A stretch of 64,000 nucleotides of DNA, taken from the NCBI RefSeq assembly GCF_002197985.1, contig NZ_NBYK01000010.1:1-64000 (forward strand), read 5' to 3'. Shown in pieces: positions 29,918 to 61,133 of the stretch (positions are counted from its first letter, which is position 1; every line of letters begins with the position of its first letter). A program made the translations under genes and the position numbers. Below the pieces are notes generated by a model. It was not told the origin of the DNA, did not search any database, and worked only from the letters and a program-made list of their open reading frames with translations. The stretch comes from Halopseudomonas aestusnigri (lineage in GTDB: Bacteria > Pseudomonadota > Gammaproteobacteria > Pseudomonadales > Pseudomonadaceae).

Positions 29918-30586
29918 TTACAGCGCCATCGCCTCGGGCCGGCTCAACGTCGCGCTCTCGGCGCGCATTCCGGCCGCCAGGAACGGAACCATCAGCCGCA
30001 ACACATCGTCGACCGGACGCGGCTCGCCCAGCTCCGCCTCCGCAATCGCACGCAGCGCCTTCATACTGGACATGGTGAAGGCCGCGCTGCCGAGCATAAA
30101 GTGAACGCGCCAGAACAGCTCCTGCGGAGGGATGCCCGGCACAGCACTGACCAGAAGCTGCATATAACGCTGAAATACCTTGCCATACACCTCGCTGAGG
30201 TATTTGCGCAGATGGCCCTGGCTCTGGTTGAATGCGAGCCCTAGCAACCGCATGAAGGTTGAGAGGTCATGGCCGTTGCGCGGCTTCACTGCCAGCGCCT
30301 GCTGAACCAGCATTTCGAGCAGAACCTCAAGACTGGGTGGCGCGCCCTTGTCACGCGACTCGCGCAGATCCAGTTCCTTCTCAAGGCTGCTGACGAAGGG
30401 GTCCAGGAACCGGACGAATACGGCCTGAATCAATGCCTTCTTTGAGCCAAAATGGTAGTTGACCGCGGCCAGATTGACGCCTGCCTTGCTGGTAATCAGG
30501 CGTAGAGAGGTTTCCGCGAAACCCTTTTCGGCAAAAAGCTGTTCTGCGGCGTCAAGTATTCGCTTGACCGTGTCGGACTGCGCCAT
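29918..30586 (-). CDS. psrA: TetR-family fatty-acid-responsive regulator PsrA
   Basis: This is a 222-residue TetR regulator from the ATG at 30586 (MAQSDTVKRILDAAEQLFAEKGFAETSLRLI). The HTH lies at about residues 28-47 (SKAGVNLAAVNYHFGSKKAL), followed by a long all-helical ligand domain. In Pseudomonas, PsrA represses its own gene and fadBA, activates rpoS, and releases DNA on binding long-chain fatty acids. Identity is supported by position next to lexA-sulA and by two matching operators in its own promoter. GGGGGAG precedes the ATG. Confidence 0.93.
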   Translation of the reverse strand: MAQSDTVKRILDAAEQLFAEKGFAETSLRLITSKAGVNLAAVNYHFGSKKALIQAVFVRFLDPFVSSLEKELDLRESRDKGAPPSLEVLLEMLVQQALAVKPRNGHDLSTFMRLLGLAFNQSQGHLRKYLSEVYGKVFQRYMQLLVSAVPGIPPQELFWRVHFMLGSAAFTMSSMKALRAIAEAELGEPRPVDDVLRLMVPFLAAGMRAESATLSRPEAMAL

Positions 30587-30604
30587 GCGCTCCCCCAAGT
30601 GAGG

Positions 30605-30649
30605 CAAACATTCGTTTCAAACATACGTTTAAAACGATTTTAGTGTCAA
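30605..30649 (-). promoter_or_regulatory. psrA promoter with tandem PsrA boxes
   Basis: On the minus strand TTGACA (30644-30649) and TATGTT (30620-30625) are separated by 18 bp. Two boxes of the known (G/C)AAAC-N2-4-GTTT(G/C) form overlap and follow the -10: CAAAC-N4-GTTTC at 30605-30618 and CAAAC-N4-GTTTA at 30618-30631. They share one base. The layout predicts tight autorepression. Confidence 0.85.
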
Positions 30650-36997: not shown

Positions 36998-39145
36998 TTA
37001 ACCGAAGAATTTCTGACCGTTCTTCGCCATTTCACGCAGCTTTTCAGTCGGTGCGTACATGGCGCCGAACTCGGCGTATTTATCAGCAATGGCAACAAAC
37101 TCAGCCACGCCGATGGTGTCGATGTAACGCAGGGCGCCACCACGGAAGGGCGGGAAGCCGATACCGTAGACCAGACCCATATCTGCGTCAGCCGCGGACT
37201 CGACGATGCCATCTTCCAGGCAGCGTACGGTTTCCAGGCACAGCGGAACCATCATGATTTCGATGATTTCCTCGTCGGTGAACTCGCGCTGCTCCAGAAC
37301 TACTTCTTTCAGCAGCTCATAAGCCTTGGCGTCGACAACCTTCTTCGGCTTGCCCTTCTTGTCCATCTCGTAGGCATAGAAGCCGCTGCCGGTCTTCTGA
37401 CCCAGACGGCCGGCGTCATACATGACGTCAACAGCGGTGCGGGTCTTGTCGGCCATACGGTCCGGGTAGCCTTCAGCCATGACGTCACGGCCGTGGTGAC
37501 CGGTGTCCATGCCGACAACGTCCATCAGGTAAGCCGGGCCCATCGGCCAGCCAAACTTTTCCATGACCTTGTCAACGCGCTGGAAGTCGGCACCCATCCC
37601 GATCAGGCGAGCAAAGCCACCGAAATACGGGAACAGGATACGATTGACCAGGAAGCCGGGGCAGTCGTTGACCACAACCGGGGTCTTGCCCATCTTCTTG
37701 GCGTAGGCAACGGTGGTGGCGACCGCTTTGTCGCTGGACTTCGCGCCACGGATAACCTCAACCAGCGGCATCATGTGTACCGGGTTGAAGAAGTGCATGC
37801 CGCAGAAGTTTTCCGGACGCTTGAGCGCCTCGGCCAGATAGGTGATGGAGATAGTCGAGGTATTGGAAGTGATGATGGTGTCTTCCGTTACCTGACCTTC
37901 CACTTCTGCCAGCACCGCGTGTTTGACCTTCGGATTCTCGACAACCGCTTCAACCACCAGGTCAACTTCCTTGAAGTCGCCGTAGGACATGGTCGGACGG
38001 ATGGCGTTCAGCGCCTTGGCCATTTGCTCAGGCTTCATGCGGCCTTTGGCAACACGCTTGCCCAGCAGCTTGGAGGCTTCGTCCAGACCCAGCTGGATGC
38101 CTTCCTCGCGGATATCCTTCATCAGGATCGGAGTGCCCTTGACGGCAGACTGGTAGGCGATACCGCCACCCATGATGCCTGCGCCCAGTACGGCAGCCAG
38201 CTTCACATCACCAGCCTGCTTATCGTACTTCTTGGCTTTGTGCTTGAGTACCTGATCGTTCAGGAACAGACCAACGAGGCTGGCAGCAACAGAGGTCTTG
38301 GCCAGCTTGGCAAAACCGGCAGCTTCAATTTCCAGCGCCTTTTCACGGCCGTGGTTGGCTGCTTTCTGGATGGTCTTGATCGCTTCAACCGGCGCCGGAT
38401 AGTTCGGGCCTGCCTGACCGGCGACGAAACCCTTGGAGGTTTCAAACGCCATCATCTGCTCGATGGTGTTCAGCTTGACCTTTTCCAGTTTGGGCTGACG
38501 CTTGGCCTTGTAGTCCAGCTCGCCGGCGATGGCGCGCTTGATCACGTCAATGGCAGCCGCCTTGAGCTGATCATCGGCAACAACCGCATCAACTGCACCG
38601 ACTTTCAGAGCCTTGTCAGCGCGCTGCTCGGTACCGCCGCAGATCCACTCGATGGCGTTGTCCACGCCGATCAGGCGCGGCAGGCGAACGGTGCCGCCGA
38701 AGCCCGGGTAGATACCCAGCTTGACTTCCGGCAAACCGATCTTGGCGCTGGCGGCCATGACACGGAAATCGGCCGCCAGACACATTTCCAGACCACCACC
38801 CAGCGCGATGCCATTGATGGCAGCAACGGTGGGAACGTTCAGGTCTTCAAATGCGTTGAAGATCTTGTTGGCTTCCAGGTTCCCGGCAACCAGATCTTCT
38901 TCCGGCAGCTTGAACGTACCAACGAATTCGGTGATGTCGGCGCCGACGATGAAAACGTCCTTGCCGCTGGTGACAACAACGCCGGTGACATCGGCATTGT
39001 TCTGGATGGCCTCTACCGCCGCCTGCAGCTCGGACAGAGTGGCGCTGTTGAACTTGTTGACCGACTCGCCCTGCAGATCAAATCTGAGCTCGACGATGCC
39101 GTCTTCAAGGCCTTGAACCGTGATGGCTTTACCTTCGTAAATCAT
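36998..39145 (-). CDS. fadB: fatty acid oxidation complex subunit alpha
   Basis: FadB is a 715-residue multifunctional enzyme. The N-terminal enoyl-CoA hydratase/isomerase domain has [21 protein letters not shown] and [21 protein letters not shown] with two catalytic Glu. The hydroxyacyl-CoA dehydrogenase domain starts at [18 protein letters not shown] (about residue 317), with [17 protein letters not shown] carrying the His. The ATG at 39145 follows GGAG by 8 nt and gives the standard Pseudomonas length; the frame is open one codon further to a TTG. A PsrA-type box lies about 130 bp upstream. Confidence 0.98.
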
Positions 39146-39672
39146 CAACTGATCTCCACGCTATGAAAAGCACATGAGAAACACCGGCCAGCCACGTCTC
39201 TTTGCCGACACGTCGCCCGCCAGTGTCATGAACGATCCCGATAATCGGGGGACACGCTGAATCAAAAAATTCATACGACCGTTTGATTCGGGTGCGCACA
39301 CCTTCTTTGAATTCAGCCCTGTTGTCAATTGGGGGACGGCATCAGCGCCGCCAAAACAGCTGTCTTCCCCCAACAAAAACAACAAATAAATTCTTTAAAA
39401 ACAATTAGATAAAAAGAACACCCAATTCCAAACCAGGCCATCAACTTTCTCTTCAAGCAATGCAGCCTGCAGCAAAAAACCCGTCGCCACCGCAGTCTCG
39501 GCTGCCGCCAGGCCATGAAAAACGGCCGGAAACAGTCTGCATCAACGCCCTGATCGGCGCTATGCTGAGAATAGACGAGGTTCGCCAGGCGGCCGCTTAA
39601 GCCCTCGAAGAAACGGGCTGCACCTTGCTCGACAAGACTGCTAGTATCGCTGCAAAAAAGGAGAAAGAGCCG
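39146..39672. promoter_or_regulatory. fadBA / uspA intergenic region with PsrA-type box
   Basis: This is 527 bp without a credible gene. At 39272-39285, read on the minus strand, is CAAAC-GGTC-GTATG, one base off the PsrA pattern, followed by an AT-rich TTTTTTGATT that may hold the -35. The section 39330-39600 is AT-richer than the surroundings and shows no recognisable element. Confidence 0.7.
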
Positions 39673-54122: not shown

Positions 54123-55109
54123 TCAACCCAGATTAACGACTACCCGACCGATCATCTTGCCGGCCAGAATGCGCTCGATCTCGGCGGGCAACTGCTCCAG
54201 CGTCACCTCGCGCTCAAGATTGTGCAAATCGGTCTTCCATTGCAGTGACAGCCGATCCCACATCGACGCCTTGACCACCAGCGGCAGCTCTACCGAGTCG
54301 ACGCCCAGCAGGTTCACATTGCGCAAAATGAACGGGAACACACTGGCTGCAAATCCGCCGCCAGCAGTCATTCCGCAGGTCGCAACACTGGCACCATAGC
54401 GCAGCGACTTGACCACATTGAACAGAATGTCGCCACCGACGGTATCCACCGCGCCAGCCCACTGTTCCTTGAGCAACATTTTCTCGACACCCGCCGCCAG
54501 CGCAGCGCGATCAACGATCTGGCTGGCACCCAGGCCCTTGAGCATATCCACCTGATCGGCCTTGCCGGTCGAGGCTGCCACCTCGTAACCCAGAGATGCC
54601 AGCATGGCCACCGCAATACTGCCTACACCACCGGTGGCGCCGGTTACCAGCACCGGGCCCTGCCCCGGCGTAAGGCCCGCCTGCTCCAGCTTGTCGATAC
54701 ACAGCGCCGCCGTCAGGCCGGCAGTACCCAGCACCATGCTGTCACGCAGCGACAGCCCTTCCGGACGCTTGATCACCCAGCCGGCCGGCACGCGGATGTA
54801 TTGACCAAAGCCGCCAGAGGTATTCATGCCGAGGTCGTAGCCGGTGACGATCACCTCATCACCGACTGCCAATTCAGGCACCGAGCTGGCCTCCACCACA
54901 CCGGCCGCATCAATACCCGGGGTATGGGGGAAGTTCCGCGTCACACCCTTGTTACCGGTGGCCGAGAGTGCGTCCTTGTAGTTCAGGGAGGAGTAGCGCA
55001 CACGAATGAGCACATCCCCTGCAGGCAGCTCATCCACATGCTGTTGCTTGATCTCGGTGACATACCGGCCGTCCTGCTCCGACACCACCAGCGCCTTGAA
55101 TTCAGACAT
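54123..55109 (-). CDS. acuI: acrylyl-CoA reductase / YhdH-type quinone oxidoreductase
   Basis: This is a 328-residue zinc-free medium-chain dehydrogenase of the YhdH/AcuI family. It starts MSEFKALVVSEQDGRYVTEI and has SSLNYKDALSATGNKGVTRNFPHTPGIDAAGVV, with the NADPH fold at VLVTGATGGVGSIAVAMLASLGYEV. AcuI members reduce acryloyl-CoA to propionyl-CoA; in marine bacteria this detoxifies DMSP breakdown products, but no DMSP genes are nearby. AGGAG sits 5 nt before the ATG at 55109. It follows sohB by 8 bp. Confidence 0.9.
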   Translation of the reverse strand: MSEFKALVVSEQDGRYVTEIKQQHVDELPAGDVLIRVRYSSLNYKDALSATGNKGVTRNFPHTPGIDAAGVVEASSVPELAVGDEVIVTGYDLGMNTSGGFGQYIRVPAGWVIKRPEGLSLRDSMVLGTAGLTAALCIDKLEQAGLTPGQGPVLVTGATGGVGSIAVAMLASLGYEVAASTGKADQVDMLKGLGASQIVDRAALAAGVEKMLLKEQWAGAVDTVGGDILFNVVKSLRYGASVATCGMTAGGGFAASVFPFILRNVNLLGVDSVELPLVVKASMWDRLSLQWKTDLHNLEREVTLEQLPAEIERILAGKMIGRVVVNLG

Positions 55110-55117
55110 ATCCACTC

Positions 55118-56143
55118 CTACCAGAAACGTTGATTGTTGAAGCGCGACACCCAGGTCAGCAACAGTCGGTCCGCCGCCTGGGCCAGCCCGCCGGACAACC
55201 GGTCCTGCAGGCGCTTGCGCTGCTCAAACTGCACCTCAAATACATCAGCCTGCCTGACCCGCTCACACAGGTACTGGTCACTGGTCTTGATCTCGTCGGC
55301 CAGCCCGCGCAGCAAGGCCTCGCTGCCGAACCAGACCTCACCTGTGGCGACCGTCTCAATGTCCAGGCTTGGGCGATAGCGCGCAACAAACTGCTTGAAC
55401 AGGCGGTGAATGTTTTCCAGGTCATCCTGAAACTTTTCCCGCGCCTTGTCACTGTTCTCGCCAAATACCGTCAGTGTGCGCTTGTACTCCCCCGCAGTCA
55501 GCATTTCAAAATCAATATCGTGCTTTTTCAGCAATCGATTGAAGTTGGGCAACTGCGCGACAACGCCGATCGAGCCCAGCATGGCGAAGGGTGCCGCCAG
55601 AATCCGATCAGCGATACAGGCCATCATATAGCCGCCACTGGCTGCCACCTTGTCGACGGAGATGGTCAGCGGGATACCCGCCTCGCGCACACGCACCAGC
55701 TGCGATGACGCAAGCCCGTACGCATGCACCATGCCGCCACCACTTTCCAGGCGAACAACGACCTCATCCTGCGGACGCGCCAGCTCCAGCACCGCCGTCA
55801 CTTCATGGCGCAGATTTTCCAGCGCACTGGCCTTGATGTCGCCATGAAAGTTGAGCACATAAACGCGCCCGCGCTCATCCTGGGCTGCATCCTTGTCGCG
55901 GGCCTTCGCCTCCTGCTTAAGCTGCTTCTGCCGGGCCTTGCGAGCGCCCTTGCTGAGCACCATCAGCCCAAGCTGCTCGTGCATGCGCTGCAGACGGTCG
56001 TTCAGGCGAGTCACACTCAGTGTGCCCTCGACGCGCTTGCTGCGCGCCTTGCCGGCAGCAATCATCGCCAGAATCAGCGCCACCACCACCAGCACCGTCA
56101 GGGCCTTGGCAAGAAAATAGACATATTGATCAAACCATTCCAC
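55118..56143 (-). CDS. sohB: inner-membrane serine protease SohB
   Basis: SohB is a peptidase S49 (SppA-like) protein of about 341 residues. An N-terminal helix (FLAKALTVLVVVALILAMIAAG) anchors it. A charged linker follows, then the protease core with catalytic Ser in DKVAASGGYMMACIADRI and Lys in LTAGEYKRTLTVFG. I prefer the GTG at 56143 (product VEWFDQYVYFLAK) because GGGAG precedes it by 6 nt and it matches the usual short N terminus; another GTG lies seven codons upstream. It should be co-transcribed with acuI. Confidence 0.92.
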   Translation of the reverse strand: MEWFDQYVYFLAKALTVLVVVALILAMIAAGKARSKRVEGTLSVTRLNDRLQRMHEQLGLMVLSKGARKARQKQLKQEAKARDKDAAQDERGRVYVLNFHGDIKASALENLRHEVTAVLELARPQDEVVVRLESGGGMVHAYGLASSQLVRVREAGIPLTISVDKVAASGGYMMACIADRILAAPFAMLGSIGVVAQLPNFNRLLKKHDIDFEMLTAGEYKRTLTVFGENSDKAREKFQDDLENIHRLFKQFVARYRPSLDIETVATGEVWFGSEALLRGLADEIKTSDQYLCERVRQADVFEVQFEQRKRLQDRLSGGLAQAADRLLLTWVSRFNNQRFW

Positions 56144-56230
56144 AGTGTTCTCCCGTCTCTGCACAACCCGCTAAGCACAGCAAGCATACAGGATCATCAG
56201 GGCATGGGCGCAGGCCGTCCGGGGAAAATT

Positions 56231-56282
56231 CAAACGCCCGTATGATTTTTGGTTGACAGCTTCGCGAGCTTGCCCCTAACCT
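56231..56282 (+). promoter_or_regulatory. PsrA-type box and promoter of the phosphatase-SCP2 pair
   Basis: CAAAC-GCCC-GTATG at 56231-56244 is nearly identical to the box upstream of fadB (CAAAC-GGTC-GTATG), and both are followed by a T-rich run. A TTGACA -35 lies at 56253-56258 with a plausible -10 TAACCT at 56277-56282 (18-bp spacer). The box would lie just upstream of the -35. Confidence 0.65.
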
Positions 56283-56313
56283 CCGTCTACATAACATTAC
56301 AAGGCGGCAGATT

Positions 56314-57018
56314 GTGGGCAGTATCTATCTGATCAGGCACGGACAGGCATCACTTGGCGCAGCCAACTACGACGTCCTGTCCCCCCTCGGCATCCGCCAG
56401 GCACAGCTGTGCGGCGAACATTTCGGCGCGCTTGGCCTGCAGTTCGATGCCTGCTACGCCGGCACCCTGCAACGCCAGATCGATACCGCCCGCCACGCGC
56501 TCGACGCGATGAATCAGTCCTCCCTCGCGGTCCAGAGCGACGCCAGCTTTAACGAATACCACTCTGACCAGGTGCTTGAAAGCTACCTGCCGCAGGTGCT
56601 TGAAGCCATCCCCGACGCCGAGCATTACCTGAAGAACGCAGGACAGTTCCGCAAGGAATTTCAGCGCGTTTTCAGTCACGCCGTGACACTCTGGATAACC
56701 GACACCTGCGAGCGCCCCGGCTGTCCGTCCTGGCAGAGCTATGTCGACCAGGTTGCCAGCGGCCTGCGCCGGGTTATCGATGACAACCGCGGCAGCGGCC
56801 AGAACATTGCCGTATTCGCATCGGGCGGCACCATTACCGCCGCCCTGCAACTGATCACGCAAATGCCGGCCACCAGCGCCTTTGAGCTGAACTGGCAAAT
56901 CGTGAATACCTCTGTAAGCCGCCTGCAGTACCGTGCAGACAAGCTGAGTCTGGCCTACTTCAATAGCCAGGCACATCTTGAGATTCACCGCCAACCCGAG
57001 TGGATCAGCTTCAGATGA
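56314..57018 (+). CDS. histidine phosphatase family protein
   Basis: This is a 234-residue phosphoglycerate-mutase-like protein with the RHG signature at the very start (IYLIRHGQASLGAANYDVLSPLGIRQAQ). The second catalytic Arg lies in YAGTLQRQIDTA and the second His region is less clear (VFASGGTITAAL, where GG replaces the common GHGG), so catalytic competence needs care. It starts at a GTG with AAGGCGG upstream. With the SCP2 gene 49 bp downstream and a PsrA-type box ahead, a role in lipid or acyl-CoA metabolism is inferred. Substrate unknown. Confidence 0.85.
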   Translation: MGSIYLIRHGQASLGAANYDVLSPLGIRQAQLCGEHFGALGLQFDACYAGTLQRQIDTARHALDAMNQSSLAVQSDASFNEYHSDQVLESYLPQVLEAIPDAEHYLKNAGQFRKEFQRVFSHAVTLWITDTCERPGCPSWQSYVDQVASGLRRVIDDNRGSGQNIAVFASGGTITAALQLITQMPATSAFELNWQIVNTSVSRLQYRADKLSLAYFNSQAHLEIHRQPEWISFR

Positions 57019-57067
57019 GTCGCAGTGCGCATCCCGCGCCCTGCATTACCTAGCAAAGGAACCACCA

Positions 57068-57382
57068 ATGACTACCGTTGCAGAAATCACCAGCCAAATG
57101 GAATCCAAGTTCAACTCAGCCGCTGCAGCCGGTCTGGATCTGGTATTCCAGTTCAACATCACCGACGACGAGAACTTCAACGTGACCGTCAAGGACGGCA
57201 GCTGCGCTGTAGCTCAGGGCGAAGCCGCCGATCCGAACGTGACCCTGATCATGGACAAGGAAACCCTGGTCGGCGTGATGACCGGTGAAACCGACGGCAT
57301 GCAGGCCTTCATGGGCGGCAAACTGCGCGCCGAAGGCGACATGATGCTGGCACTCAAGCTGGGCGAACTGTTCCCGGCCTGA
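57068..57382 (+). CDS. SCP2 sterol-transfer domain protein
   Basis: This is a 104-residue single-domain SCP-2 protein: MTTVAEITSQMESKFNSAAAAGLDLVFQFNIT, then DPNVTLIMDKETLVGVMTGETDGMQAFMGGKLRAEGDMMLALKLGELF. The last stretch is the typical lipid-cavity helix region. SCP2 domains bind acyl-CoAs and other lipids and are often encoded with fatty-acid enzymes. AAAGGA lies 8 nt before the ATG. Downstream, the SDR gene that would be the expected neighbour is separated from it by the allophanate hydrolase module. Confidence 0.92.
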   Translation: MTTVAEITSQMESKFNSAAAAGLDLVFQFNITDDENFNVTVKDGSCAVAQGEAADPNVTLIMDKETLVGVMTGETDGMQAFMGGKLRAEGDMMLALKLGELFPA

Positions 57383-57605: not shown

Positions 57606-59408
57606 ATGACACAACAGACCCTCGGCTTTACCCTCTCCGACTGGCAACAGGCATATCAACAGGAAGGTCGCTCGCCTGCAGCAGTGCTCGGCGCCCTGCG
57701 CAACGAGCTGAACACTGACGATAACGCCTGGATCAGCCTTGCCAGCGAGGCCCAGCTCAACGAGCAGTTAGCCGCTCTGGATGAACGCCTGCAACAGGCA
57801 GACGGCAAGGTCGCATCGCTGCCACTGTACGGCGTCCCCTTCGCGGTAAAGGACAACATCGACGCAGCTGGCTGGGACACCACTGCCGCCTGCCCGGCCT
57901 TCGCTCATCAGGCTAGTGCCGATGCCACCGTCGTTGCCCGCCTGCGCGCGGCAGGTGCCATTCTGATTGGCAAGACCAATCTGGACCAATTCGCCACCGG
58001 TCTGGTCGGCACCCGTTCGCCATATGGCGCCGTCAGCAACAGTTTCAACGCCGATTACGTCAGCGGCGGCTCCAGCTCCGGCTCCGCCAGTGTGGTCGCC
58101 CGTGGCCTGGTACCCTTTGCGCTCGGCACCGACACCGCCGGGTCCGGCCGCGTGCCGGCCGGCTTCAACAATATTGTCGGCCTCAAACCGACCCGCGGCT
58201 GGCTCTCCAATACCGGACTGGTACCGGCCTGCCGAACCCTCGATTGCATCTCGGTATTCGCCCTGACTGTTGCCGACGCCCAGGCAGTCGCCACCATCGC
58301 CGGCGGCTTCGATCCCAACGACGCTTACAGCCGCGCCAACCCCTGTAGCGCGCCGGTCGGCTTGCCGGTCAGGCCGAAACTGGCCATACCGGCCAATCCC
58401 GAGTTCTTCGACGACACGCAAATGCAGGCAGCCTATGAGACAGCGCTCGAGAAGTGGCGCGCGTTCGGCGCAGAGCTGGTCGAGATTGACTTCAGCCCCT
58501 TTGCAGACCTGGCGGCTCAGCTGTATCAGGGCTCGTGGGTGGCTGAACGCACCGTCGCCGTTGGCGGCATGGAACCGGACAAAATGGATCCGGTCGTGCG
58601 CAGCATCGTCGAAGGCGGCCACAAATACAGCGCCTGCGAGGCCTATCAGGCCGAGTACATCCGTGCCGAGTTGTCACGCCAGATCAGCCTGATCCTGGCC
58701 GACTTTGATGCCCTGCTGGTGCCAACCTCGCCGACCATTCGCCGTATCAGCGAGATGGCGGAGGAACCGGTGCTCTACAATAGCCAATTCGGCACCTATA
58801 CCAACTTCACCAACCTGGCCGACTTGTGCGCACTGGCCTTGCCCGCAGGCATGCGCGAAGACGGCCTGCCCGCCGGCGTCACCCTGATTGCACCGGCCTG
58901 GCACGATCACGCCCTGGCCGAGCTGGGCAAACGCTGGCAGCAAGCCCAGGCACTGCCACTGGGCGCAACCGGCAAGCCCTGTCCGGGTGCGCAACAGACT
59001 ATTCAAGTGCCGGGTAGCGTGCGCGTAGCGGTGGTCGGCGCGCACCTGACCGGCATGCCGCTGAACTTCCAGCTGACCAGTCGCGACGCCGTGCTGGTCG
59101 AACAAACCCTGACCTGTCCGGATTACCGGCTGTATGCCCTGCCCGGCACCGTTCCGCCCAAGCCTGGTCTGGCGCGGGTTGCGCAGGATGGCGCACAGAT
59201 TATTGTCGAGCTGTGGGATATCCCGCTGGCCCGCTTCGGGGAATTCGTCGCCGAGATTCCGCCGCCGCTGGGCATTGGCAACCTGCAGCTGGCAGATGGT
59301 CGCTGGGTGAAGGGCTTTATTTGTGAACCGGCCGCACTCGCCGACGCCCGCGACATTACCGCCTTCGGCGGCTGGCGTGCATTCATTGCCAGCCTCAGTG
59401 CAGCCTGA
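57606..59408 (+). CDS. atzF: allophanate hydrolase
   Basis: This is a 600-residue amidase-signature enzyme that splits allophanate to ammonia and CO2. The Ser-cisSer-Lys triad is visible: Lys82 in PFAVKDNID, the GGSSSGSAS cluster at about 154-162, and Ser180 in LGTDTAGSGRVPAGFNN. The additional C-terminal domain (from about 460, VRVAVVGAHLTGMPLNFQL to FGGWRAFIASL) is the allophanate hydrolase hallmark and separates it from plain amidases. No urea carboxylase or cyanurate gene lies nearby, so the source of allophanate is not evident. Its Shine-Dalgarno is weak, under the palindrome. Confidence 0.93.
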   Translation: MTQQTLGFTLSDWQQAYQQEGRSPAAVLGALRNELNTDDNAWISLASEAQLNEQLAALDERLQQADGKVASLPLYGVPFAVKDNIDAAGWDTTAACPAFAHQASADATVVARLRAAGAILIGKTNLDQFATGLVGTRSPYGAVSNSFNADYVSGGSSSGSASVVARGLVPFALGTDTAGSGRVPAGFNNIVGLKPTRGWLSNTGLVPACRTLDCISVFALTVADAQAVATIAGGFDPNDAYSRANPCSAPVGLPVRPKLAIPANPEFFDDTQMQAAYETALEKWRAFGAELVEIDFSPFADLAAQLYQGSWVAERTVAVGGMEPDKMDPVVRSIVEGGHKYSACEAYQAEYIRAELSRQISLILADFDALLVPTSPTIRRISEMAEEPVLYNSQFGTYTNFTNLADLCALALPAGMREDGLPAGVTLIAPAWHDHALAELGKRWQQAQALPLGATGKPCPGAQQTIQVPGSVRVAVVGAHLTGMPLNFQLTSRDAVLVEQTLTCPDYRLYALPGTVPPKPGLARVAQDGAQIIVELWDIPLARFGEFVAEIPPPLGIGNLQLADGRWVKGFICEPAALADARDITAFGGWRAFIASLSAA

Positions 59409-59420
59409 GCAGGTCACACC

Positions 59421-60188
59421 GTGCAACTGAGCCAGCCATCCAACACAGCAGCTCGGCGGGAGAACCTCGCCGAGCGCATCCACGCGCGGCTCAAGGAGGA
59501 CATCCTGTCCTTCCGGCTGCTGCCCGGTGACCGCTTTTCCGAGGGTGAAATCGCCGCACGCATGAACGCCAGCCGCACACCGGTGCGCCAGGCACTCTAC
59601 CAGCTTGAGCGCGAAGGCTATCTGGAGGTGCGTTTTCGCAGTGGCTGGCAGGTCAGAAGCTTCGACTTTACCCGCTTCGAGGAGCTCTATGACCTGCGCA
59701 TCGTGCTGGAGATGGAAGCGCTCAGGCGTCTTTGCACCGGCCAGCCCGGCACCGCAGCAGAGCACATACTGAAAACCCTGCATGACACCTGGTGCGTAGC
59801 GCCCGCGCTGCGCACTGGTGACGGCCAGCAGGTGTTCGTCATGGATGAGCACTTTCACTGCCAACTGGTGGAAGCCGCCGGCAACGGCGAGATGACGCGT
59901 CTGCACGCCGAGATCTGCGAGCGCATACGCGTTGTCCGAAAACTGGATTTCGAGCGTGCCGAACGGCTCGACAAGACCTGGGAAGAACATGGGCAAATCC
60001 TGCGGCACATTCGCGCCGGCGAACTGCAACAGGCCCAGCACCTGCTGACCGCGCACATAGAGGCAAGCAAGGCAGAGGTACGCAAAGTCACCCTGCACAA
60101 GCTGCAACAGGCTCGCCAGCGCGCCCTGCAGGCAGCAGACAGCGTGCCTTCTACGCCGAATGCTGTCTGCCCTTCAGACACTCATTGA
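59421..60188 (+). CDS. GntR-family regulator with FCD domain
   Basis: This is a 255-residue regulator. The winged HTH lies at residues about 15-80 (LAERIHARLKEDILSFRLLPGDRFSEGEIAARMNASRTPVRQALYQLEREGYLEV). It is followed by an FCD helical domain with metal/ligand residues in DLRIVLEMEALRRL, MDEHFHCQLVEAAGN and WEEHGQILRHIRAGE. It starts at a GTG 12 bp after the allophanate hydrolase stop, so the two are co-transcribed and the regulator probably controls the pair through the palindrome at 57575-57598. Effector unknown. Confidence 0.92.
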   Translation: MQLSQPSNTAARRENLAERIHARLKEDILSFRLLPGDRFSEGEIAARMNASRTPVRQALYQLEREGYLEVRFRSGWQVRSFDFTRFEELYDLRIVLEMEALRRLCTGQPGTAAEHILKTLHDTWCVAPALRTGDGQQVFVMDEHFHCQLVEAAGNGEMTRLHAEICERIRVVRKLDFERAERLDKTWEEHGQILRHIRAGELQQAQHLLTAHIEASKAEVRKVTLHKLQQARQRALQAADSVPSTPNAVCPSDTH

Positions 60189-60365: not shown

Positions 60366-61133
60366 ATGGAAAAGACCCAACTGTTCGACCTCGACGGCAA
60401 AGTTGCCCTGGTAACCGGCGCCAGCCGCGGTATCGGCGAGGCGATTGCCAAGCTACTGGCCCAGCAGGGTGCGCACGTGATCATCTCCAGCCGCAAGATC
60501 GATGACTGCCAGGCCGTTGCTGACGCCATCGTCGCCGCCGGCGGCAAAGCCTCCGCACTCGCCTGCCACATCGGCGACATGGATCAGATCGTTGCCACCG
60601 TTGCCGCCATTCGCGAGCAGTTCGGCAAGCTGGATATCCTGGTTAACAACGCCGCCGCCAACCCTTACTTCGGCAACGTACTGGACACCGATCTGGGCGC
60701 CTTCCAGAAGACCGTAGACGTCAACATCCGCGGCTACTTCTTCATGTCGGTTGAAGCGGGCAAACTGATGCGCGAAAACGGCGGCGGCAACATCCTCAAC
60801 GTAGCCTCCGTCAATGGTGTGGTTCCCGGTCAGCTGCAGGGTATCTACTCGATCACCAAGGCAGCAGTCATCAACATGACCAAGGTATTCGCCAAGGAGT
60901 GCGCTCAGTTCGGCATTCGCTGCAACGCCCTGCTGCCGGGCCTGACCGACACCAAGTTCGCCTCCGCCCTGACTACCAACGACGCTATCCTCAAGCCGGC
61001 ACTGCAGCGCATCCCGCTGGCCCGTGCAGCGGATCCGACCGAAATGGCAGGCACCGTCCTGTATCTGGTCAGCGACGCCTCAAGCTACACCACTGGCGCT
61101 GCGATCAACGTCGACGGCGGCATGCTCGCATAA
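60366..61133 (+). CDS. SDR family NAD(P)-dependent oxidoreductase
   Basis: This is a 255-residue classical short-chain dehydrogenase. The cofactor motif is ALVTGASRGIGEAIA (TGxxxGxG), NNAA occurs at about residue 95, catalytic Ser in NVASVNG, and YSITKAA gives the YxxxK pair. The C terminus TTGAAINVDGGMLA is typical. The closest-looking group is FabG-like or glucose/3-ketoacyl reductases; no substrate can be named. It has its own leader of 177 bp and ends at a terminator. In relatives, as I recall, SDR genes stand close to the SCP2/histidine phosphatase pair. Confidence 0.9.
   Translation: MEKTQLFDLDGKVALVTGASRGIGEAIAKLLAQQGAHVIISSRKIDDCQAVADAIVAAGGKASALACHIGDMDQIVATVAAIREQFGKLDILVNNAAANPYFGNVLDTDLGAFQKTVDVNIRGYFFMSVEAGKLMRENGGGNILNVASVNGVVPGQLQGIYSITKAAVINMTKVFAKECAQFGIRCNALLPGLTDTKFASALTTNDAILKPALQRIPLARAADPTEMAGTVLYLVSDASSYTTGAAINVDGGMLA

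Follow-up and report, generated by a model that had tools for sequence, protein, structure and literature searches.

Introduction

PsrA recognizes operators of the consensus (G/C)AAAC-N2-4-GTTT(G/C). Published accounts describe PsrA as a repressor of fadBA5, PA0506 (fadE1) and psrA and as an activator of rpoS (PMC13104628, PMC5722320, PMC11890623), and long-chain fatty acid is described as removing PsrA from DNA at fadBA5 and lasR (PMC13104628). For SBW25, the transcription start of rpoS is reported to map about 12 bp after C565 of the -10 element and the PsrA site to lie 50-29 bp upstream of C565, i.e. at approximately -62 to -41, with deletion of psrA lowering transcription from the rpoS promoter 4- to 6-fold (PMC11838912). 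A compilation of regulons (Leyn et al. 2016/RegPrecise) is described as holding 673 PsrA sites in 76 genomes. In a second area of fatty-acid metabolism, ACAD10/11 and LvaA/LvaC are reported to act on 4-hydroxyacyl-CoAs by way of a 4-phospho intermediate (PMC11342911, PMC12440821), and a histidine phosphatase is described within the lva cluster of P. citronellolis (PMC6692424).

Here we compare these systems with an operon of Halopseudomonas aestusnigri that encodes a small SCP2 (sterol carrier type) protein. The operon lies in a stretch of 64,000 nucleotides, analysed as a whole and referred to below as the window, in which an initial annotation had placed a histidine phosphatase/SCP2 gene pair in the fatty-acid regulon on account of a PsrA-type box before it.

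Results

The promoter of the operon carries a PsrA-type operator of 18-base palindromic form, TTCAAACGCCCGTATGAT (56229..56246, forward strand), identified by sequence and conservation, within which lies the 14-base core CAAACGCCCGTATG (CAAAC-N4-GTATG; 56231-56244, forward strand). The core is followed on its 3' side by a T-rich run and then by TTGACA, with 8 bp between the end of the box at 56244 and the hexamer; box, run and hexamer had all been reported initially and are present at those positions. The -35 element TTGACA (56253..56258, forward strand) begins 24 bp after the first base of the operator and is separated by an 18-base spacer from a probable -10 element, TAACCT (56277..56282, forward strand), which would place the transcription start of the SCP2 operon near 56289.

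Relative to the published PsrA core, the box has one mismatch (GTATG); it has none to the 18-base form found in this genome, WTCAWACNNNNGTWTGAW. The same deviation from the core occurs in the fadB box of the window, where the operator ATCAAACGGTCGTATGAA (39270..39287, reverse strand) lies downstream of the -10 element, a repressor position, before fadB (36998..39145, reverse strand), whose product has enoyl-CoA hydratase and 3-hydroxyacyl-CoA dehydrogenase domains. The 14-mer of the fadB leader, CAAACGGTCGTATG (39272-39285, reverse strand), shares with the SCP2-promoter box its half-sites, its N4 spacing and the G..C edges of the spacer, as had been proposed. The window also holds psrA itself (29918..30607, reverse strand; TetR family; ATG at 30586), for whose product the best NCBIfam model is a PsrA-type repressor, at 230 bits and so under the model cut-off of 300. 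Tandem PsrA boxes overlap the -10 element of the psrA promoter (30603..30633, reverse strand): box 1, CAAACATTCGTTTC (30605-30618), matches (G/C)AAAC-N4-GTTT(G/C) exactly and thus bears out the canonical form ascribed to this promoter, and box 2, CAAACATACGTTTA (30618-30631), shares one base with it.

The 14-mer alone is statistically weak, with five matches at up to one mismatch against 2.2 expected. When the window was ranked with a matrix trained solely on the psrA promoters of other genomes, the first four places were taken by the two psrA boxes, the fadB box and the SCP2-promoter site, and 0.37 chance hits per 64 kb are expected at the score of the last. The 18-base form WTCAWACNNNNGTWTGAW has two exact sites in the window, and five sites at up to two mismatches against 0.70 expected. 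Throughout the 3.83-Mb genome it occurs exactly four times, before each of two FadE-type acyl-CoA dehydrogenase genes, fadB and the SCP2 operon. Seven further sites have one mismatch: one is in the psrA promoter, one is the rpoS-upstream site within nlpD, and five are in or next to unrelated genes. The identity of the regulator as PsrA is supported by this company, namely two FadE-type genes and fadB among the exact sites and the psrA and rpoS-upstream sites among those with one mismatch.

The exact form occurred 137 times in 37 Halopseudomonas genomes (two to five times per genome), where the reversed pattern had no occurrence. Among 25 genomes of other genera it was present one to four times in 17 and absent from eight (all four g17 genomes, G038, G044, G045 and G059), and the reversed control matched once each in G044, G047 and G063. 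A chance origin of the box is ruled out by these whole-genome and genus-wide counts, not by the 14-mer alone.

Conservation of the box before orthologous genes shows which gene the promoter serves. An SCP2 orthologue is present in 34 of the 37 Halopseudomonas genomes, the remaining three being 75-81% complete, and the box precedes it in 34/34; a phosphatase orthologue is present in only 19 of the 37, with the box in all 19. The 15 SCP2-bearing genomes without the phosphatase all retain both a box with no mismatches and TTGACA before SCP2, so that the boxed promoter reads directly into this gene (in L191 the box is further upstream, at -252). We sampled the wider family through 148 genomes from a larger group, 117 of which gave a match: 19 Halopseudomonas, 88 of other genera and 10 g5 genomes whose partial phosphatase match was not counted as possession of the gene. 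Of the 88 phosphatase-bearing genomes outside Halopseudomonas, 84 have the box at up to two mismatches, and the misses are all four genomes of g17. We looked for SCP2 in 16 of 41 genomes (31 without a phosphatase match and the 10 g5); in these 16 phosphatase-less genomes of other genera the box stands before SCP2 with at most one mismatch in 11 and is absent in five. Genome G145 is represented by two loci, L067 and L089; it enters the 84/88 as a single genome, whereas the 136-promoter alignment and the 58 phosphatase rows used below contain both entries.

Absence of the box from orthologous promoters had been named at the outset as grounds for rejecting a PsrA-controlled operon; the scan of related genomes found the box in 34/34 and 84/88, and this ground for rejection falls away. 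The original proposal of a regulated phosphatase-SCP2 pair therefore holds for the promoter and for SCP2 and fails for the phosphatase, which is dispensable. Since 15 of 34 genomes lack the phosphatase and yet keep the box, the regulated core is SCP2, the two genes do not form an obligate unit, and the emphasis that had been laid on the phosphatase was misplaced. On this comparative evidence, the promoter belongs to SCP2, and a phosphatase gene may or may not stand between them. In one locus (L088, genome G155) a second, weaker box, TTCAAACGCTCTTTTCAA, with two mismatches, lies approximately 80-95 bp before the phosphatase and overlaps the upstream side of the main box.

Loss of the box gives a further line of evidence. 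In the four g17 genomes (loci L098, L099, L172-L175, L241 and L242) the exact box is absent genome-wide, and there is no acceptable box at the psrA promoter or at the SCP2-operon promoter in any of the four, despite retention of TTGACA at the latter. These genomes still encode a PsrA, of 62-64% identity and with a nearly unchanged recognition helix, that is altered at positions where the other 32 aligned sequences do not vary, among them 9, 10, 57 and 61 (numbered from the TTG at 30607); the changes K57 to N/S and Q61 to E both fall within the TetR_N match at 17-63. Loss of the psrA gene is thus too simple a cause for the loss of the boxes, and g17 stands as a case of rewiring or loss of the PsrA regulon. 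The SCP2-promoter box is also lacking in g3 (1/1; G038, which has no clear PsrA) and in g12 (2/2; the PsrA of G047 is merely 44% identical), while G044 (g9; PsrA 60% identical) and G061 (g10) have lost the box and kept TTGACA. In G044, G045 and G047 psrA itself has no good box (three to four mismatches), and G045 combines a one-mismatch box before SCP2 with a poor psrA box (three mismatches). The operator is missing along with that of psrA in g17 (4/4) and along with a clear PsrA in g3 (1/1), and the correspondence is imperfect in G044, G061 and G045.

A different regulator that binds a similar palindrome could produce some of these patterns, because sites of TetR-type proteins can look alike and PsrA is retained in g17 despite the loss of the box. 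We regard this as highly improbable: three of the four exact sites in the genome precede PsrA-type targets, the fourth being the SCP2 operon itself, and the boxes of the psrA and SCP2-operon promoters have disappeared together in g17. Membership of the SCP2 promoter in the PsrA regulon is well supported by conservation, genomic company and the co-loss in g17, and the fatty-acid control first proposed for this promoter is, on the same comparative grounds, very likely right.

The operator could alternatively serve the gene on its other side, or both directions. Across the shared intergenic region lies a divergent gene for a sohB-type protease of family S49 (55118..56164, reverse strand), with a gene of the YhdH/AcuI acrylyl-CoA reductase family beyond it (54123-55109, reverse strand); sohB is a recurrent divergent neighbour of the SCP2 locus. 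The sohB start is approximately 65-86 bp from the box, depending on which of two possible starts is used, and many of the neighbourhoods read have a sohB-type gene in this divergent position. Control of sohB is nevertheless extremely improbable in view of the position of the box relative to the promoter that faces the phosphatase and SCP2. We aligned 136 promoters on TTGACA, which all 136 possess (the boxless L260-L262, from g12 and g3, were left out), and 130 of them contain the box, the six without it being those of g17 (four), G044 and G061. The distance from AAAC to TTGACA is 21 bp in 112 of the boxed promoters, 20 bp in 17 and 19 bp in one, so that a spacing of 19-21 bp holds in 130/130.

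This spacing also bears on the sign of control. We compared it with that of 20 sites before other genes, together with the sites of the genome itself. The TTGATA of rpoS begins 26 bp after the start of the box (six sites and our own), close to the 24 bp of the SCP2 promoter, while the order is reversed at the other targets: the -35 element begins 28-29 bp before the box at fadE (nine sites and two of our own), with the consequence that the box overlaps or abuts the -10 element, 40-41 bp before it at fadB (five sites and our own) and 16 bp before it at psrA (own site only). When the rpoS convention is applied to the inferred start, the SCP2-promoter box occupies -60 to -43. The SCP2 promoter thus has an operator upstream of the -35 element, centred near -52 and at near-fixed spacing. 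The rpoS promoter, inside nlpD, shares with it the operator centre about 52 bp before the start and upstream of the -35 element, a -10 element of the form NANCCT and a box-to--35 spacing that is constant in the seven rpoS sites measured; it differs in its TTGATA and 17-base spacer, as against TTGACA and 18 bases, and in its target, which here is a metabolic or lipid-binding operon. The fadBA5, PA0506 (fadE1) and psrA promoters have in common with the SCP2 promoter the palindrome and the N4 spacing, and fadB also the asymmetric GTATG half, but their boxes lie on or downstream of the -10 element instead of upstream of the -35. As judged by its layout, the SCP2 promoter is the geometric twin of the activated rpoS promoter, and this geometry points to activation by PsrA and not to repression of the fad type.

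Two considerations run counter to activation. An activator-dependent promoter has no need of a perfect -35 element such as TTGACA, and polymerase could be hindered at the -35 element by a TetR dimer bound beside it at -60 to -43. PsrA may therefore repress the SCP2 promoter as it does fadBA and fadE, in which case oleate would induce the SCP2 operon along with beta-oxidation. Such repression would agree with the operator variant, which is that of fadB, with the fit of an SCP2 acyl carrier to beta-oxidation and with the published role of PsrA as a repressor of fatty-acid degradation genes (PMC5722320, PMC11890623). The boxes of the repressed genes, however, lie on or downstream of the -10 element, and the SCP2 box is upstream of the -35 at a near-fixed spacing, like that of rpoS; we consider repression a substantial possibility, though not the probable one. 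Activation would, since fatty acid takes PsrA off the DNA, lead to the prediction that oleate lowers expression of SCP2.

The SCP2 gene (57068..57382, forward strand; ATG start) encodes a stand-alone SCP2-domain protein of 104 aa (Pfam PF02036, E 2.8e-20), and its structure model (pLDDT 88.4) has SCP2 fold matches in the PDB. By sequence it is related there to AF1534 and to the human MFE-2 SCP2-like domain, and by fold to alkylsulfatase C-termini and SCP2 proteins. It thus resembles the SCP2 domains of peroxisomal beta-oxidation (MFE-2/HSD17B4, SCPx) in both fold and sequence (1ikt, E 1e-7) and the C-termini of the alkylsulfatases SdsA1 (2cfu) and Pisa1 (2yhe) in fold, but is not, like them, fused to an enzyme. 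Judged by its fold, the protein most likely carries acyl groups or acyl-CoA.

The phosphatase gene (56314..57018, forward strand) begins with GTG and encodes a histidine phosphatase branch-1 protein of 234 aa (Pfam His_Phos_1, E 6.5e-20), so that Pfam matches confirm both members of the pair as initially named. We take PA1831 and PA1830 to be the P. aeruginosa orthologues of the pair; PA1831 is annotated as gpmA. In 58 orthologue rows from 57 genomes, R8 and H9 of the RHG motif are invariant, and the second catalytic His of the (S/A)HG motif is absent from all 58: its place is taken by Ser170 (SGG), as shown by alignment with E. coli phosphoglycerate mutase (1e58), which has AHG there. Phosphatase activity is therefore not to be assumed. 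The initial annotation had suggested that the pair may traffic or hydrolyse acyl-CoA; of the two proteins, SCP2 has the fold of a lipid carrier, but the phosphatase is without this His. Eleven paralogous loci (L026-L036, approximately 30% identical) likewise have SSGG, with RHG intact. An invariant C-terminal His221 is found in the phosphatase and its paralogues, and another chemistry may be possible. The structure models of the SCP2 protein and the phosphatase have the expected folds and make their functions no sharper.

Neighbourhoods of other genera add a third gene. In at least 10 of 20 of them, according to rough lists of mechanically called ORFs, whose names come from inspection by eye except where a domain search is cited, an APH-family kinase gene lies behind SCP2, often followed by an SDR gene. 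The kinase of these relatives matches solved ACAD11 (E 1.1e-49), and a close orthologue is present in 13 of the 37 Halopseudomonas genomes. In seven of these 13 a further PsrA-type box stands 84 bp upstream of the kinase gene itself, exact in L135, L136 and L140 and with one mismatch in L141-L144; this box, too, is upstream of the likely kinase promoter. At the SCP2 locus of the window genome there is no ACAD10/11-type kinase, the only homologue (34%) being elsewhere in the genome. An allophanate hydrolase and a GntR-family gene (57606-60188) stand between SCP2 and an SDR oxidoreductase gene (60366..61133, forward strand; NCBIfam PRK07035), where relatives carry the kinase; the SDR is of the gene kind that trails it there. 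In the window no gene for an acyl-CoA dehydrogenase was found from the SCP2 promoter up to the SDR, and none was recognized next to the kinase in the rough ORF lists of the relatives, read by eye; one lies beside a kinase homologue in L152.

These neighbours invite comparison with the lva operon and the ACAD10-ACAD11 pathway, to which the relatives' ACAD11-like kinase and SDR behind SCP2 correspond, as does the histidine phosphatase to that of the lva-type cluster of P. citronellolis; the window locus differs in having neither the kinase nor an acyl-CoA dehydrogenase gene and in its putative regulator, PsrA. Ancestrally, the operon might have used its phosphatase and ACAD10/11-type kinase to set the level of 4-phospho-acyl-CoA in the catabolism of 4-hydroxy fatty acids, with SCP2 delivering the substrate. 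The ACAD11 match of the kinase beside SCP2, the boxes before the kinase in 7/13 Halopseudomonas and the phosphatase of the lva cluster (PMC6692424) agree with this arrangement, which we nonetheless hold to be doubtful. In the window, the interval from the promoter to the SDR contains no acyl-CoA dehydrogenase gene, the phosphatase is without its second catalytic His, and phosphatase and kinase have been lost independently in Halopseudomonas: a close kinase orthologue occurs in 7 of 19 genomes with the phosphatase and in 6 of 15 without it (a 51% copy elsewhere in G007 is uncounted). Because presence of the kinase is independent of that of the phosphatase, the idea that the phosphatase is an antagonist of the kinase is weakened.

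Discussion

We have compared an SCP2 operon of Halopseudomonas with the described targets of PsrA. Our preferred explanation, in which we place somewhat more belief than doubt, is that PsrA binds beside the -35 element of the SCP2 operon and activates it, with SCP2 as the core product and the phosphatase and kinase as options. PsrA would bind approximately 43-60 bp before the transcription start, adjoining the -35 element, and the bound protein would contact RNA polymerase and most likely activate the promoter as at rpoS. Long-chain fatty acid would take PsrA off the DNA, so that the SCP2 operon goes down as fadBA and fadE are released. SCP2, a small protein and most likely a carrier of acyl groups or of acyl-CoA, would be the product that stays under this control, and the histidine phosphatase and, in relatives, the ACAD10/11-type small-molecule kinase would be optional companions, often with an SDR gene behind.

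A literature search yielded no paper linking PsrA to SCP2 or to PA1831/PA1830 among the matches listed; the site lists of RegPrecise/Leyn et al. 2016 were outside its scope, and the SCP2 promoter may already be among their sites. As far as the literature searched is concerned, the SCP2 operon is very likely a new member of the PsrA regulon, an assignment based on genome comparison.

In a wider and more speculative proposal, to which we give little credence at present, PsrA may be a two-way fatty-acid switch in the Pseudomonadaceae. With no long-chain fatty acid present, PsrA bound on the -10 element or beyond it would repress beta-oxidation, and PsrA bound upstream, as at rpoS, would at the same time activate a widespread SCP2 lipid-carrier operon, in which a kinase of the ACAD10/11 type for 4-hydroxy (oxidized or endogenous) acyl-CoAs is often present. 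The cell would thus handle its own or hydroxylated acyl chains when there is no food fat.

Our analysis provides a widespread and functionally blank SCP2 gene with a likely regulator and a likely signal. With one sensor and one operator, SCP2 is predicted to respond in the opposite direction to fadBA, owing to the position of the operator, and, if this is true, the SCP2 promoter would be a further activated PsrA promoter that is directly comparable with rpoS. The independent loss of phosphatase and kinase makes SCP2 the first gene to study experimentally. Finally, regulation by PsrA would give a bacterial SCP2 protein the connection with beta-oxidation that is familiar from peroxisomes.
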